NCBI RefSeq assembly: GCF_000015285.1
Contig: NC_008709.1
Location: forward strand, 868,001-932,000
Length of the DNA: 64,000 bases
Direction of reading: 5' to 3'
Source: Psychromonas ingrahamii 37
Lineage (GTDB): Bacteria > Pseudomonadota > Gammaproteobacteria > Enterobacterales > Psychromonadaceae
The notes under the pieces were generated by a model that saw only the letters and a program-made list of their open reading frames with translations, was not told the origin of the DNA and made no database searches. Shown here piece after piece: positions 53,841-57,163 of the stretch (the stretch's first letter is position 1; each line of letters opens with the position of its first letter). The translations under genes and the position numbers were made by a program.

Positions 53841-54608
53841 ATGAAAAAAAATAATCTTCAAATGGCTATTATTCTGGCCACTTTTTTTTCAAGCTCCACT
53901 TTTGCTACTGCACCCGTCAGTGACGTAACTGGCTCTGCGAGTGGCGTAACTGGGTCTGTCAGTGTCGTAACAGCCGCAGAAGGAGTGAGTGTTGAAAAAC
54001 AATTAGAAAAGTTTGCTCGTCTATTGGAATCACGTAATAGAATGCAAATCATCATGCAAAACCAATTGACTCAACTATCTAAAGAGTTGAGAGAAATTAA
54101 GGGGGGCATGGAGCTGTTTGAGCATAAAATCAGTGAGATTGAAAATCGCCAACGTAATCTATACCAACTGGTTGACCAGCCTAAGGCCGTCTCAACCCCT
54201 ACTACTGCTAATAGCACTGCAACCGCAAGTTCTGCAGGTGAACAATTGGCCTATCAAGCTGCTGTGGATTTGGTTTTAGTTAATAAGGATTATGATCAGG
54301 CAATTACTGCTTTTGAGGCATTTGTTATTGATTATCCGGAATCCGAATATATCGCAAATTCTCATTATTGGTTGGGGCTAGTATTATATCAGCAGAAAAA
54401 ACGTAAAGAAGCGCGCGTCGCTTTCCTGACGGTGAGTGAAAAGTTTCCCGAGTCGGTTAAACGTGCGGATTCTTTATTTAAAATAGGTATTATTGATGAA
54501 TATTTGGGAGAATTAGCTTCGGCAAAAGAGTTTTATCAAAAAGTGTTAAAAGAATACCCAAATTCATCGGCCGCAGGGCTCGCACAAAAACAATTAAATG
54601 CTTTATAA
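53841..54608 (+). CDS. cpoB: Cell division coordinator CpoB (YbgF)
   Basis: A 255-residue periplasmic protein: signal peptide (MKKNNLQMAIILATFFSSST), an N-terminal coiled-coil trimerisation region (about 50-110), a linker rich in Thr/Ala/Ser and three TPR-like repeats (about 130-255: AITAFEAFVIDYPESEYIAN, VAFLTVSEKFPESVKRADSL, EFYQKVLKEYPNSSAAGLAQ). It coordinates Tol-Pal with septal peptidoglycan synthesis in E. coli. Seven bases after pal; last gene of the operon. Confidence 0.92.
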   Translation: MKKNNLQMAIILATFFSSSTFATAPVSDVTGSASGVTGSVSVVTAAEGVSVEKQLEKFARLLESRNRMQIIMQNQLTQLSKELREIKGGMELFEHKISEIENRQRNLYQLVDQPKAVSTPTTANSTATASSAGEQLAYQAAVDLVLVNKDYDQAITAFEAFVIDYPESEYIANSHYWLGLVLYQQKKRKEARVAFLTVSEKFPESVKRADSLFKIGIIDEYLGELASAKEFYQKVLKEYPNSSAAGLAQKQLNAL

Positions 54609-54631
54609 ATACGATTAGGATTTAATCATAT

Positions 54632-54666
54632 AACAAGTTGCAATCCCCGTTGTTTTGCAATTTGTT
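54632..54666 (+). terminator. Probable terminator of the tol-pal operon
   Basis: AACAAGTTGCAA (54632-54643) pairs with TTGCAATTTGTT (54655-54666) over 12 positions with one G-T pair. There is no long T run beyond it. Confidence 0.6.
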
Positions 54667-54702
54667 TACTTTGTCGGCAAACAGAAAAAAAACAAGCGTT
54701 TT

Positions 54703-54731
54703 TTGTTGCGATATTCATAATATTGTATAGT
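54703..54731 (+). promoter_or_regulatory. Promoter of the tRNA-Lys cluster
   Basis: TTGTTG (54703-54708), a 17-bp spacer and TATAGT (54726-54731), followed by a GC-rich CGCCGC discriminator typical of stable RNA promoters. It lies about 180 bp upstream of the first mature tRNA, leaving a long leader that itself resembles a decayed tRNA. Confidence 0.7.
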
Positions 54732-54814
54732 ATACGCCGCAGTTGAGAGCAAGATGTGATTTACTTCATGTTTCTATTTTCTTAAACTATAGCGGAAATT
54801 TTTACTTATCTGCT

Positions 54815-54890
54815 GGCTTGACTAAGTTGATTAAAATATTAATTTTAATCCTATTTAGTTGACAATAGTCGAAGTGAGACCTTCGGTTAA
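54815..54890 (+). other. tRNA-Lys-like leader sequence (decayed copy)
   Basis: The stretch contains AAGTTGATT, TTTTAATCC, TTTAGTTGAC and a GTCGAAGTGAGACCTTCGG hairpin in the same order as the D arm, anticodon loop, variable region and T arm of the neighbouring tRNA-Lys genes. Similarity is weak and was judged by eye. Confidence 0.4.
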
Positions 54891-54913
54891 TAAGTAATAC
54901 TAAAAAACTATTA

Positions 54914-54989
54914 GGGCCGTTAGCTCAGTTGGTAGAGCAGTGGACTTTTAATCCGTTTGTCGAAGGTTCAAATCCTTCACGGCCCACCA
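54914..54989 (+). tRNA. tRNA-Lys (anticodon UUU), copy 1
   Basis: A 76-base tRNA with encoded CCA. Acceptor stem GGGCCGT pairs with ACGGCCC; the D arm is GCTCAGTTGGTAGAGC; the anticodon loop CTTTTAA gives anticodon TTT; the T arm is GAAGGTTCAAATCCTTC. It decodes AAA and AAG. All five copies in the cluster are identical. Confidence 0.98.
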
Positions 54990-54997
54990 AGTTTTTA

Positions 54998-55062
54998 GAC
55001 AGTAAGCTCTGAATTTTATTCGGGGTATCAGTTAAGATTTTTAATATAGATTCGCTGATAAG
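54998..55062 (+). other. tRNA-like spacer segment (decayed)
   Basis: This spacer piece begins GACAGTAAGCTC and contains TTTTTAATATAG before CGCTGATAAG, in the order of tRNA-Lys features but heavily altered. It is the least tRNA-like of the spacers. Confidence 0.3.
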
Positions 55063-55082
55063 TAAGACCAAAAAAACATTAA

Positions 55083-55135
55083 GACCTTCAGCTTAGTTTA
55101 TTGATATAGTGCTTTAATACTCTTTGTTTGATAAG
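55083..55135 (+). pseudogene. Decayed tRNA-Lys copy
   Basis: GACCTTCAGCTTAGTT, then a region ending AGTGCTTTAATACTCTTTGT, follows the order acceptor, D arm, AGTGG anticodon stem, TTTAAT loop and variable region of the intact copies. No T arm or CCA remains. Confidence 0.5.
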
Positions 55136-55153
55136 TAACCCTAAAAAATATTT

Positions 55154-55229
55154 GGGCCGTTAGCTCAGTTGGTAGAGCAGTGGACTTTTAATCCGTTTGT
55201 CGAAGGTTCAAATCCTTCACGGCCCACCA
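55154..55229 (+). tRNA. tRNA-Lys (anticodon UUU), copy 2
   Basis: Identical over all 76 bases to copy 1, including the encoded CCA. Its start is 240 bp after the start of copy 1. Confidence 0.98.
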
Positions 55230-55237
55230 AATTTTTA

Positions 55238-55291
55238 GACAGTCAGCTCAGTTGATCGGAATGTAATTTTTAATTCTCTTTAGTTGATAAG
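55238..55291 (+). pseudogene. tRNA-Lys-like spacer after copy 2
   Basis: GACAGTCAGCTCAGTTGATC, then TTTTTAATTCTCTTTAGTTG, aligns with the acceptor, D arm, anticodon loop and variable region of the adjacent tRNA. It is almost the same as the spacer at 55594-55647. Confidence 0.55.
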
Positions 55292-55324
55292 TAAGACCAA
55301 ATAAGTAACAACAGAAAAATATTT

Positions 55325-55400
55325 GGGCCGTTAGCTCAGTTGGTAGAGCAGTGGACTTTTAATCCGTTTGTCGAAGGTTCAAATCCTTCACGGCCCACCA
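55325..55400 (+). tRNA. tRNA-Lys (anticodon UUU), copy 3
   Basis: Identical to copy 1 over 76 bases with encoded CCA; 171 bp after the start of copy 2. Confidence 0.98.
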
Positions 55401-55408
55401 AATTTTTA

Positions 55409-55490
55409 GACCGTCAGCTCAGTTGGTTGAAATGTGAATTTTAATCCTCTTTAGTTGATAAGAGTCGAAGTGAAACCTTCGATTAATAAG
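55409..55490 (+). pseudogene. tRNA-Lys-like spacer after copy 3, best preserved
   Basis: GACCGTCAGCTCAGTTGGTT matches the acceptor and D arm of the neighbouring tRNA closely, and AATTTTAATCC matches the anticodon loop. About 32 of the first 40 aligned positions agree by hand. A GTCGAAGTGAAACCTTCGA hairpin remains where the T arm should be. The D arm no longer closes and there is no CCA. Confidence 0.65.
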
Positions 55491-55509
55491 TATAAGAAGA
55501 AGTATATTT

Positions 55510-55585
55510 GGGCCGTTAGCTCAGTTGGTAGAGCAGTGGACTTTTAATCCGTTTGTCGAAGGTTCAAATCCTTCACGGCCCACCA
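55510..55585 (+). tRNA. tRNA-Lys (anticodon UUU), copy 4
   Basis: Identical to copy 1 over 76 bases with encoded CCA; 185 bp after the start of copy 3. Confidence 0.98.
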
Positions 55586-55593
55586 AATTTTTA

Positions 55594-55647
55594 GACAGTC
55601 AGCTCAGTTAATTGTAATGTAAATTTTAATTCTCTTTAGTTGATAAG
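55594..55647 (+). pseudogene. tRNA-Lys-like spacer after copy 4
   Basis: GACAGTCAGCTCAGTTAATT then AATTTTAATTCTCTTTAGTT aligns with tRNA-Lys from acceptor to variable region. It is nearly identical to the spacer after copy 2, so copies 2-3 and 4-5 share a 171-bp repeat unit. Confidence 0.55.
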
Positions 55648-55680
55648 TAAGACCAAATAAGTAACAACAGAAAAATATTT

Positions 55681-55756
55681 GGGCCGTTAGCTCAGTTGGT
55701 AGAGCAGTGGACTTTTAATCCGTTTGTCGAAGGTTCAAATCCTTCACGGCCCACCA
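55681..55756 (+). tRNA. tRNA-Lys (anticodon UUU), copy 5
   Basis: Identical to copy 1 over 76 bases with encoded CCA; 171 bp after the start of copy 4. Confidence 0.98.
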
Positions 55757-55784
55757 CTTTTTAGATAGTCATACCGAAAAAATT

Positions 55785-55860
55785 GGGGTCGTTAGCCCAG
55801 TTGGCAGAGCAGCGGACTTTTGATCTACTTGTCAAAATTTTAAATATTTGCCACCCACCA
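55785..55860 (+). pseudogene. Degenerate tRNA-Lys with CCA end
   Basis: GGGTCGTTAGCCCAGTTGGC and AGCGGACTTTTGATC match the first half of tRNA-Lys with a few changes, and the end CCACCCACCA keeps an encoded CCA. The T arm has decayed to AAAATTTTAAATATTTG, without GGTTCAAAT, and the acceptor no longer pairs. It is most likely a non-functional sixth copy. Confidence 0.8.
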
Positions 55861-56101
55861 CTTCAATATACACTTCTATAAAAAATCCTAATAAGTTTGT
55901 ATTAATTTAAGTAAATATCTATTGCTGTAAACTCTCTTTTATTCCTGAATTCAACACCAATCCCACTAAACAAACCACTTAATTGCTAAAATTCCTTTAA
56001 ATAAATATAAAATTGATGGATTGGATATAAGCATTTTTTATTATCATTTTTACTGTTCTTCGCGGTACAATGACCAACATATTTTTAATATCTAAGAGAC
56101 T

Positions 56102-57163
56102 ATGATGAGTAAATACTCTCCAATTGTGGGTTCAGACTATCCTTTTCCAGCTAAACCAGCGGTTCTTTCTGTACCTGAAAAGGTTAATTATAAGGCTAGA
56201 ATTAAAACGCTATTAAAAGAAAAAAATGCTGTTTTAATTGCACACTATTATACCGATCCCGACATTCAGGCATTAGCTGAAGAAACGGGCGGTTATGTTT
56301 CTGATTCATTAGATATGGCGCGTTTTGGTCGTGATAATCCAGCCACTACACTGGTGGTTGCTGGCGTTCGCTTTATGGGGGAAACGGCTAAGATTTTAAC
56401 ACCCAATAAACAAGTGTTAATGCCTGAATTAGAGGCTACCTGCTCTTTAGATGTGGGCTGCCCAATCGAATCCTTCAGTGAGTTTTGTGATCAGCACCCG
56501 GACCGTACTGTGGTTGTTTATGCAAATACTTCAGCGGCTGTTAAGGCGCGTGCTGATTGGGTTGTGACTTCAAGTATTGCATTAGAAATTGTCGATCACC
56601 TTGATAGCCAGGGTAAGAAAATAATTTGGGGGCCGGACAGGCATTTAGGCGATTACATTCAGCGCAAAACCAATGCTGATATGCTGATGTGGCAAGGTGA
56701 CTGTATTGTTCATGACGAATTTAAAGCCAGTTCATTAAGGGACATGAAAGCGATTTATCCCGATGCCGCTATTTTAGTTCATCCGGAGTCGCCAGAGAGT
56801 GTGGTTAAATTGGCGGATGCGGTAGGCTCAACAAGTCAGTTAATAAAAGCGGCGCAAACGTTACCTAACAAAACACTGATCGTTGCAACTGATACCGGCA
56901 TTTTCTATAAAATGCAGCAGGCCTGTCCAGACAAAGAGTTTCTGGCAGCGCCAACTTCTGGCGACGGAGCAACCTGTCGGAGTTGTGCACACTGTCCCTG
57001 GATGGCAATGAATGGTCTTAAGGCCGTATACAACGCCCTGAATGATGCGACTGGTCATGAAATTTATGTTGATGAAAAAGTTGCTCAAGGCGCATTAGTT
57101 TCTTTAGATAGAATGATGAACTTTGCCGCAGAGGCGCAGTTAACAGTAAAAGGTAATGCATAA
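56102..57163 (+). CDS. nadA: Quinolinate synthase A
   Basis: A 353-residue iron-sulfur enzyme that condenses iminoaspartate with dihydroxyacetone phosphate to quinolinate in NAD synthesis. Hallmarks are [34 protein letters not shown], the cluster cysteines in [11 protein letters not shown] and in [15 protein letters not shown], and [13 protein letters not shown]. Length matches E. coli NadA (347). The start is one of two adjacent ATGs (56102 or 56105). Position after the tRNA-Lys cluster is the same as in enterics. Confidence 0.95.

Follow-up and report, generated by a model that had tools for sequence, protein, structure and literature searches.

The tRNA-Lys(UUU) array of Psychromonas ingrahamii 37 raises the question of where the spacers between its genes came from and why they are kept. 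The window, by which we mean the whole stretch of 64,000 nucleotides that was analysed and to which coordinates refer unless a locus is named, belongs to a genome of one contig (4.56 Mb), and the array lies in it between a reading frame that we take to be cpoB (ybgF), from synteny and from matches to the CpoB_ybgF thermometer family in relatives, and another that is presumably nadA (Table 1). Prediction and sequence comparison confirm what had been proposed from the sequence alone, namely five tRNA-Lys(UUU) genes, all of 76 bases and identical to one another, separated by spacers that measure, in order, 164, 95, 109 and 95 bp. Upstream of the array, the TATAGTATACGCCGC block is likely to hold the -10 region of the promoter of the tRNA operon, with a GC-rich discriminator; a similar block is present in the upstream sequence of relatives, and a scan with a promoter consensus reported neither this block nor any other plus-strand site. 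A scan of 54560 to 56150 yielded no terminator-like site. Two other loci match the Rfam CpoB_ybgF thermometer just under its cut-off of 51 bits (L014:313-452, 44.8 bits; L007:471-615, 43.7 bits). By a modest preference, we take the spacer elements for duplicated tRNA units that ceased to function as tRNA, adopted new folds and were kept as structured linkers, which are probably disposable.

Table 1. The tRNA-Lys array and its surroundings in the window, with the evidence for each feature.
Feature	Positions	Strand	Evidence
cpoB (ybgF) reading frame	53841-54608	+	Open reading frame; upstream of array
TATAGTATACGCCGC block, likely -10 region and GC-rich discriminator of tRNA operon promoter	54725-54742	+	By eye
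tRNA-Lys-derived type A element in transcript leader, two predicted hairpins	54815-54897	+	R3 79 bits (training set); score reached by 24/2000 shuffles; fold
tRNA-Lys(UUU) 1	54914-54989	+	tRNA prediction, RF00005
Spacer 1 with two possible, degraded type A elements (55023-55081, 55083-55153)	55023-55153	+	R3 13 and 17 bits, marginal
tRNA-Lys(UUU) 2	55154-55229	+	tRNA prediction, RF00005
Type A element without second hairpin	55238-55310	+	R3 58 bits (training set); 5/2000 shuffles
tRNA-Lys(UUU) 3	55325-55400	+	tRNA prediction, RF00005
Type A element, the best preserved; long hairpin and hairpin at T-arm position	55409-55493	+	R3 94 bits (training set); 0/2000 shuffles; fold
tRNA-Lys(UUU) 4	55510-55585	+	tRNA prediction, RF00005
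Type A element without second hairpin, near copy of 55238-55310	55594-55666	+	R3 59 bits (training set); 34/2000 shuffles; repeat family D2
tRNA-Lys(UUU) 5	55681-55756	+	tRNA prediction, RF00005
Decayed sixth tRNA-Lys copy	55786-55857	+	RF00005 23.4 bits, cut-off 29; 0/2000 shuffles
nadA reading frame	56102-57163	+	Open reading frame; downstream of array

Each stretch around the genes was aligned locally to tRNA-Lys and compared with 2000 dinucleotide shuffles of that stretch. The spacer 55401-55509, in which the sequence-only reading had recognised a tRNA-Lys copy (at 55409-55490), scored 55, a value reached by none of its shuffles (41 with tRNA-Asn, 22 with tRNA-Val), and the trailer with the sixth copy (55757-55870) scored 79; that both are derived from tRNA-Lys is beyond doubt. 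Scores were lower for the spacers 55230-55324 (31) and 55586-55680 (26) and for the leader 54815-54913 (26; shuffle counts in Table 1), and such values are insufficient alone, because among 1080 further tiles of 100 bases from elsewhere in the window ten reached at least 30, the highest being 41. These two spacers and the leader are assigned to tRNA-Lys because they are homologous to the spacer 55401-55509. For the first spacer (54990-55153) the assignment is doubtful: its score of 25 was reached by 172 of 2000 shuffles, which is not significant by itself, and tRNA-Thr scored 28 there. The sixth copy, whose T arm had been called ruined, is indeed decayed and falls under the RF00005 cut-off; it is a tRNA pseudogene, separate from the spacer elements, to which RF00005 gave no match up to an E-value of 10 and which on this count lie outside the tRNA family.

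A covariance model of the window's kind of element (R3, type A) was trained on the four window elements and nine copies from relatives, and the four consequently match it by construction. All four align to the 5′ half of the tRNA and lack the 3′ acceptor strand and CCA, and an R3 search of the own genome returned four matches, all inside the Lys array. It had been suggested that the elements share one order of parts and a hairpin at the position of the T arm; this hairpin is present in 55409-55493 and in the leader and is missing from the elements at 55238 and 55594. The stretch at 55083, likewise named as tRNA-Lys-like, is marginal (55083-55153, R3 E-value 0.44), as is its neighbour 55023-55081 (E-value 2.8). 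A direct repeat (D3) at 55037-55075 and 55110-55148 is common to other spacers, and in repeat family D2 the 55594-55666 unit is 98% identical to the 55148 unit. For 55401-55509, it is near certain that a duplicated copy lost its 3′ half and refolded.

Lys and Val genes are mixed before nadA in 11 of 33 named loci from other genera with at least two tRNAs, and the spacers might on that ground be remnants of tRNA-Val genes alternating with tRNA-Lys as in related operons. We rejected this descent, which is very improbable, because tRNA-Lys outscored the genome's own tRNA-Val, and likewise that of E. coli, in each of the six stretches examined. The comparison supports descent from tRNA-Lys, as had been argued before, and so does a near-complete intermediate in a relative's locus (L004), with most of tRNA-Lys positions 1-64 kept.

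To place these elements in the genus, we retrieved the nadA loci of 80 named relatives and searched the 295 genomes of the whole order, 24 of them from the genus (23 listed), with R3 and two further models, R1 for the Asn elements described below and R2 for a second Lys form, type B. Lys-array elements were found in 17 of the 23 listed genus genomes, R2 matching in 12 and R3 in 5, with no overlap. The type A genomes, in which the 5′ half is kept and, at the L004 locus, almost all of positions 1-64, are the window's own and G012, G022, G001 and G002; type B spacers keep the D arm with an AU hairpin behind it, in up to five consecutive copies per spacer (L014). Neither R2 nor R3 matched in the Lys array of the six other listed genus genomes (G007, G004, G006, G018, G009 and G019), among which G004 has a short form with the D arm only and the array of G006 is mostly N. 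The elements are dispensable in view of these six, some of which may be explained by assembly gaps.

Searches over the rest of the order, made with stricter filters by which weak matches are lost, gave no match outside the genus for R1 and R3, and for R2 one strong match (G154) and two weak ones in 0.3 Mb genomes (G046 and G067, E-values 4e-4 and 1e-4). On the G154 contig (L170, G154:C52:1-3000), type-B elements lie next to a cpoB that shares no more than 35% identity with that of the window, and the tRNA-Lys departs from the genus form near its 5′ end; the hit is possibly due to recombination within the tRNA, that is, transfer between genera, or to an assembly chimera joined there, both of which fit. 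The spacers before nadA in Pseudoalteromonas sp. HM-SA03 (L135) match tRNA-Lys at its positions 2-20 and then depart from it, apparently a separate 5′-end relic. Colwellia maritima (L153) has a decayed tRNA-Lys copy behind its last tRNA-Lys (z 16.7). In the literature within reach, to which few subscription journals belong, we found no description of such 5′-half spacers.

Other tRNA arrays contain parallel versions. Of the 33 named loci with at least two tRNAs, 21 entered our per-spacer similarity survey, mostly Lys-only with the mixed Lys and Val loci left out, and 26 of 52 Lys spacers counted in it after L012 had been dropped (z 36.6, a real tRNA broken by an N run). The Asn array of the own genome and of relatives carries 5′-half Asn elements (z of at least 5 in 23 of 44 spacers), with R1 matches in 15 of the 23 listed genus genomes, and the Asp array carries Asp elements (z of at least 5 in 9 of 60). 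The phenomenon is not universal in the arrays of this genome, since no spacer of its Val (0/6), Met (0/6) and Gly (0/2) arrays has a clear likeness to its own tRNA. Decayed copies were seen behind the last tRNA in the case of tRNA-Gly (L043, z 28) and tRNA-Met (L042, z 19). Separately, tRNA-Asn copies with a longer replacement anticodon arm (CTGTCCTCTTTTGAAGGTATAG or similar) occur at L036:1128-1216 and 1301-1389 (tRNA strand) and in L057, L038, L058 and L033; several retain T arm and acceptor, most sit behind the array terminator, and ARAGORN identifies the two in L036 as tRNA-Gly(tcc).

In a tree built from protein pieces of CpoB and NadA, with two outgroups, type A falls in one clade (support 0.96) together with G018 and G006, whose arrays showed no element, while type B falls in two (support 0.99 each). 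Comparison of these two deep type-B clades gives 78% identity over the 45 bases that follow the D arm and 60% over the trailer, shuffled sequences reaching 51-53% (24 and 27 pairs compared, leader copies dropped). Such similarity suggests either that the elements are old and constrained or that arrays have been exchanged between species. The earlier proposal that the spacers are fossils of a larger array thus stands insofar as the copies are relics, and not insofar as it takes all of them for fresh ones.

The elements were also proposed to be tRNA-like linkers, which is partly right as to the linker and wrong as to the fold: hairpins are predicted instead of a cloverleaf. Single-sequence folds of 14 stretches with the type A pattern gave, in most cases, a long hairpin of the old 5′ strand of the D arm with a GTTGAT-like strand, and the second hairpin where present. 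In the Asn elements, the CCTCT of the 5′ acceptor strand is predicted to pair with AGAG or GAGG directly behind the D arm. From the sequence alignments, RNAalifold retrieved no more than the D arm, plus the CCTCT pairing in the case of Asn; the longer structures behind the pair counts below were written by hand after viewing the single-sequence folds. Compared with dinucleotide shuffles, the hairpins are stable in type B (mean z -2.9, below -2 in 40 of 53 copies) and Asn (mean z -2.0, below -2 in 25 of 42), and for both hairpins of type A none of 200 shuffled sets was equally stable.

Evidence for compensatory change differs among the families. Pair counts, whose shuffles can be exceeded by related sequences without any structure, gave 33 doubly changed cells against 10.1 in Asn (0/500 shuffles; covariation score 0.193 vs. 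0.087, 0/500; pairs with a double change, 54/500) and 23 against 9.0 in type B (0/500; further pair types, 419/500). No covariation was found in type A, the window's own type, with 83.8% of cells paired vs. 83.0% (109/500). A second test, in which hairpin arms are swapped between copies, was read only against a control of shuffled hairpins, since this control had exposed a bias in the uncontrolled test. Type-B leader copies passed clearly (own minus swapped arm pairing -49.0 vs. -13.5, sd 5.7; controls 0/150), and the Asp hairpin, tested without L085 (unrelated) and L086 (a real tRNA), was reached by 0, 11 and 23 of 300 controls at window lengths of 29, 24 and 35. The test failed for type-B copies outside the leader (71/150), was weak for Asn (19/150) and gave 20/200 and 147/200 for the type A hairpins. 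Compensatory change is thus supported for the type-B leader copies and, depending on window length, for the Asp hairpin, and partly for Asn. The claim of covariation in all type-B copies, drawn from the uncontrolled swap test, was dropped, as only the leader copies are clear of the bias.

An origin of the elements in tRNA genes is well supported, and the sequences show the missing 3′ half, the predicted new folds, the occurrence across the genus and the parallel versions for Asn and Asp; co-transcription, excision and any benefit are inferred parts of the following account. The spacers go back to tandem duplicates of the tRNA-Lys transcription unit, in which the 3′ half (T arm, 3′ acceptor strand and CCA) has disappeared and the 5′ half remains as far as the anticodon loop. 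In type A, the old 5′ strand of the D arm and the strand of the anticodon loop would then have become the two sides of a long hairpin, with another hairpin at the former T arm; in type B, the D arm would have stayed, a long AU hairpin taking the place of the former anticodon arm; in Asn elements, the freed CCTCT would have re-paired just behind the D arm. Presumably in one transcription unit with the tRNAs, the elements would most likely be excised during processing of the precursor RNA. Since similar relics occur in related bacteria, the elements may have been retained as linkers and not be mere debris; structured linkers of this kind, which allow no second cloverleaf in the precursor, would be either tolerated or favoured, and recombination among the tRNA repeats would copy and homogenise them. 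For the E. coli lysT precursor, one report describes RNase P processing from 3′ to 5′ once the terminator has been removed (PMC11143913).

Whether the predicted structure has been selected is about evenly balanced. It is a less probable, though substantial, alternative that the elements are neutral debris, extra tRNA copies made by unequal crossing-over that then decayed, with hairpins that go back to the inverted repeats of the tRNA and were perfected by template switching, which would produce paired changes without selection. Plain decayed copies at the ends of arrays (55786-55857 in the window, and the Gly and Met arrays), the lack of covariation in type A and the absence of elements from several members of the genus agree with such decay, as does folding, in which native spacers had no protective effect: for L001, L002, L014, L011, L031 and L057, shuffled spacers allowed cloverleaf folding at least as well in 10, 1, 19, 15, 10 and 3 of 24 cases, and the window array was not more stable with its native spacers than with shuffled ones (-254.2 vs. 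-250.8, sd 5.5). Insulation of neighbouring tRNAs by the spacers, which this equilibrium folding did not support, was set aside. Against neutral decay speak the 5′-half architecture common to three tRNA families, the non-tRNA part of type B, more conserved than the trailer between deep clades, and the type-B leader copies, which keep their hairpin despite differing sequence.

A trans-acting role of the excised elements as small RNAs, such as sponges or decoys for tRNA-binding enzymes, is improbable. Such a role would suit the retained anticodon-loop sequence and D arm (D stem paired in 98.6% of cells over 53 type-B copies) and has a precedent in the 3′ ETS of leuZ, an external transcribed spacer that acts as a sponge and, like the Psychromonas elements, belongs to the spacers of a tRNA precursor. 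However, recombination with identical tRNA genes explains the conserved D arm equally well, and the anticodon triplet lies inside a predicted stem in types A and B. Retention as structured linkers stays our preferred reading. More tentatively, and with rather less confidence than in that reading, one may envisage a Psychromonas class of precursor-linker RNA with several independent origins, in the 5′ halves of tRNA-Lys, tRNA-Asn and tRNA-Asp at least. Each time the T arm would have disappeared and the 5′ strand thus released would have found a new pairing partner, and selection would have kept the products for a role in the processing or transcription of tRNA arrays, which would make the class a counterpart of enterobacterial RtT derived from the opposite half of the tRNA.

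RtT is described as a repeated element found in the tyrT operon of E. coli, which covariation supports in part (PMC8250186, where RtR and vTR are printed; PMC7657543). The RtT family (RF00391) reached its cut-off in the spacers of the cpoB-nadA operon in all four Enterobacterales loci tested, with 11 matches (L098, L115, L143 and L151, from Enterobacillus, Cedecea, Rouxiella and Citrobacter), and had no match in the window from 54000 to 57000 at E-values up to 10, nor in L031, L014, L016, L007, L012, L039, L040 and L135 at E-values up to 0.01. Both kinds of element are structured, tRNA-derived repeats between tRNA genes, and RtT lies in the counterpart of the window's operon in these four loci, but the RtT-bearing spacers that we inspected duplicate the 3′ end of the tRNA (positions 58-76), whereas the Psychromonas elements are 5′ halves. 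Ordinary tRNA pseudogenes, such as the sixth copy, also differ from the spacer elements, which keep the 5′ half only and have new predicted hairpins. The series shows, in many copies and at several stages of decay and refolding, a route from tRNA genes to other structured RNAs, in one genus and three tRNA families, at an operon whose enteric spacers hold a different tRNA-derived element; it is suited to a direct test of selection for structure in the spacers of tRNA arrays. Elsewhere in the same genome, behind the tRNA-Pro and tRNA-Phe genes of L045, L046 and L047, repeats of the tRNA 3′ end are followed by a terminator-like hairpin, an arrangement reminiscent of RtT.
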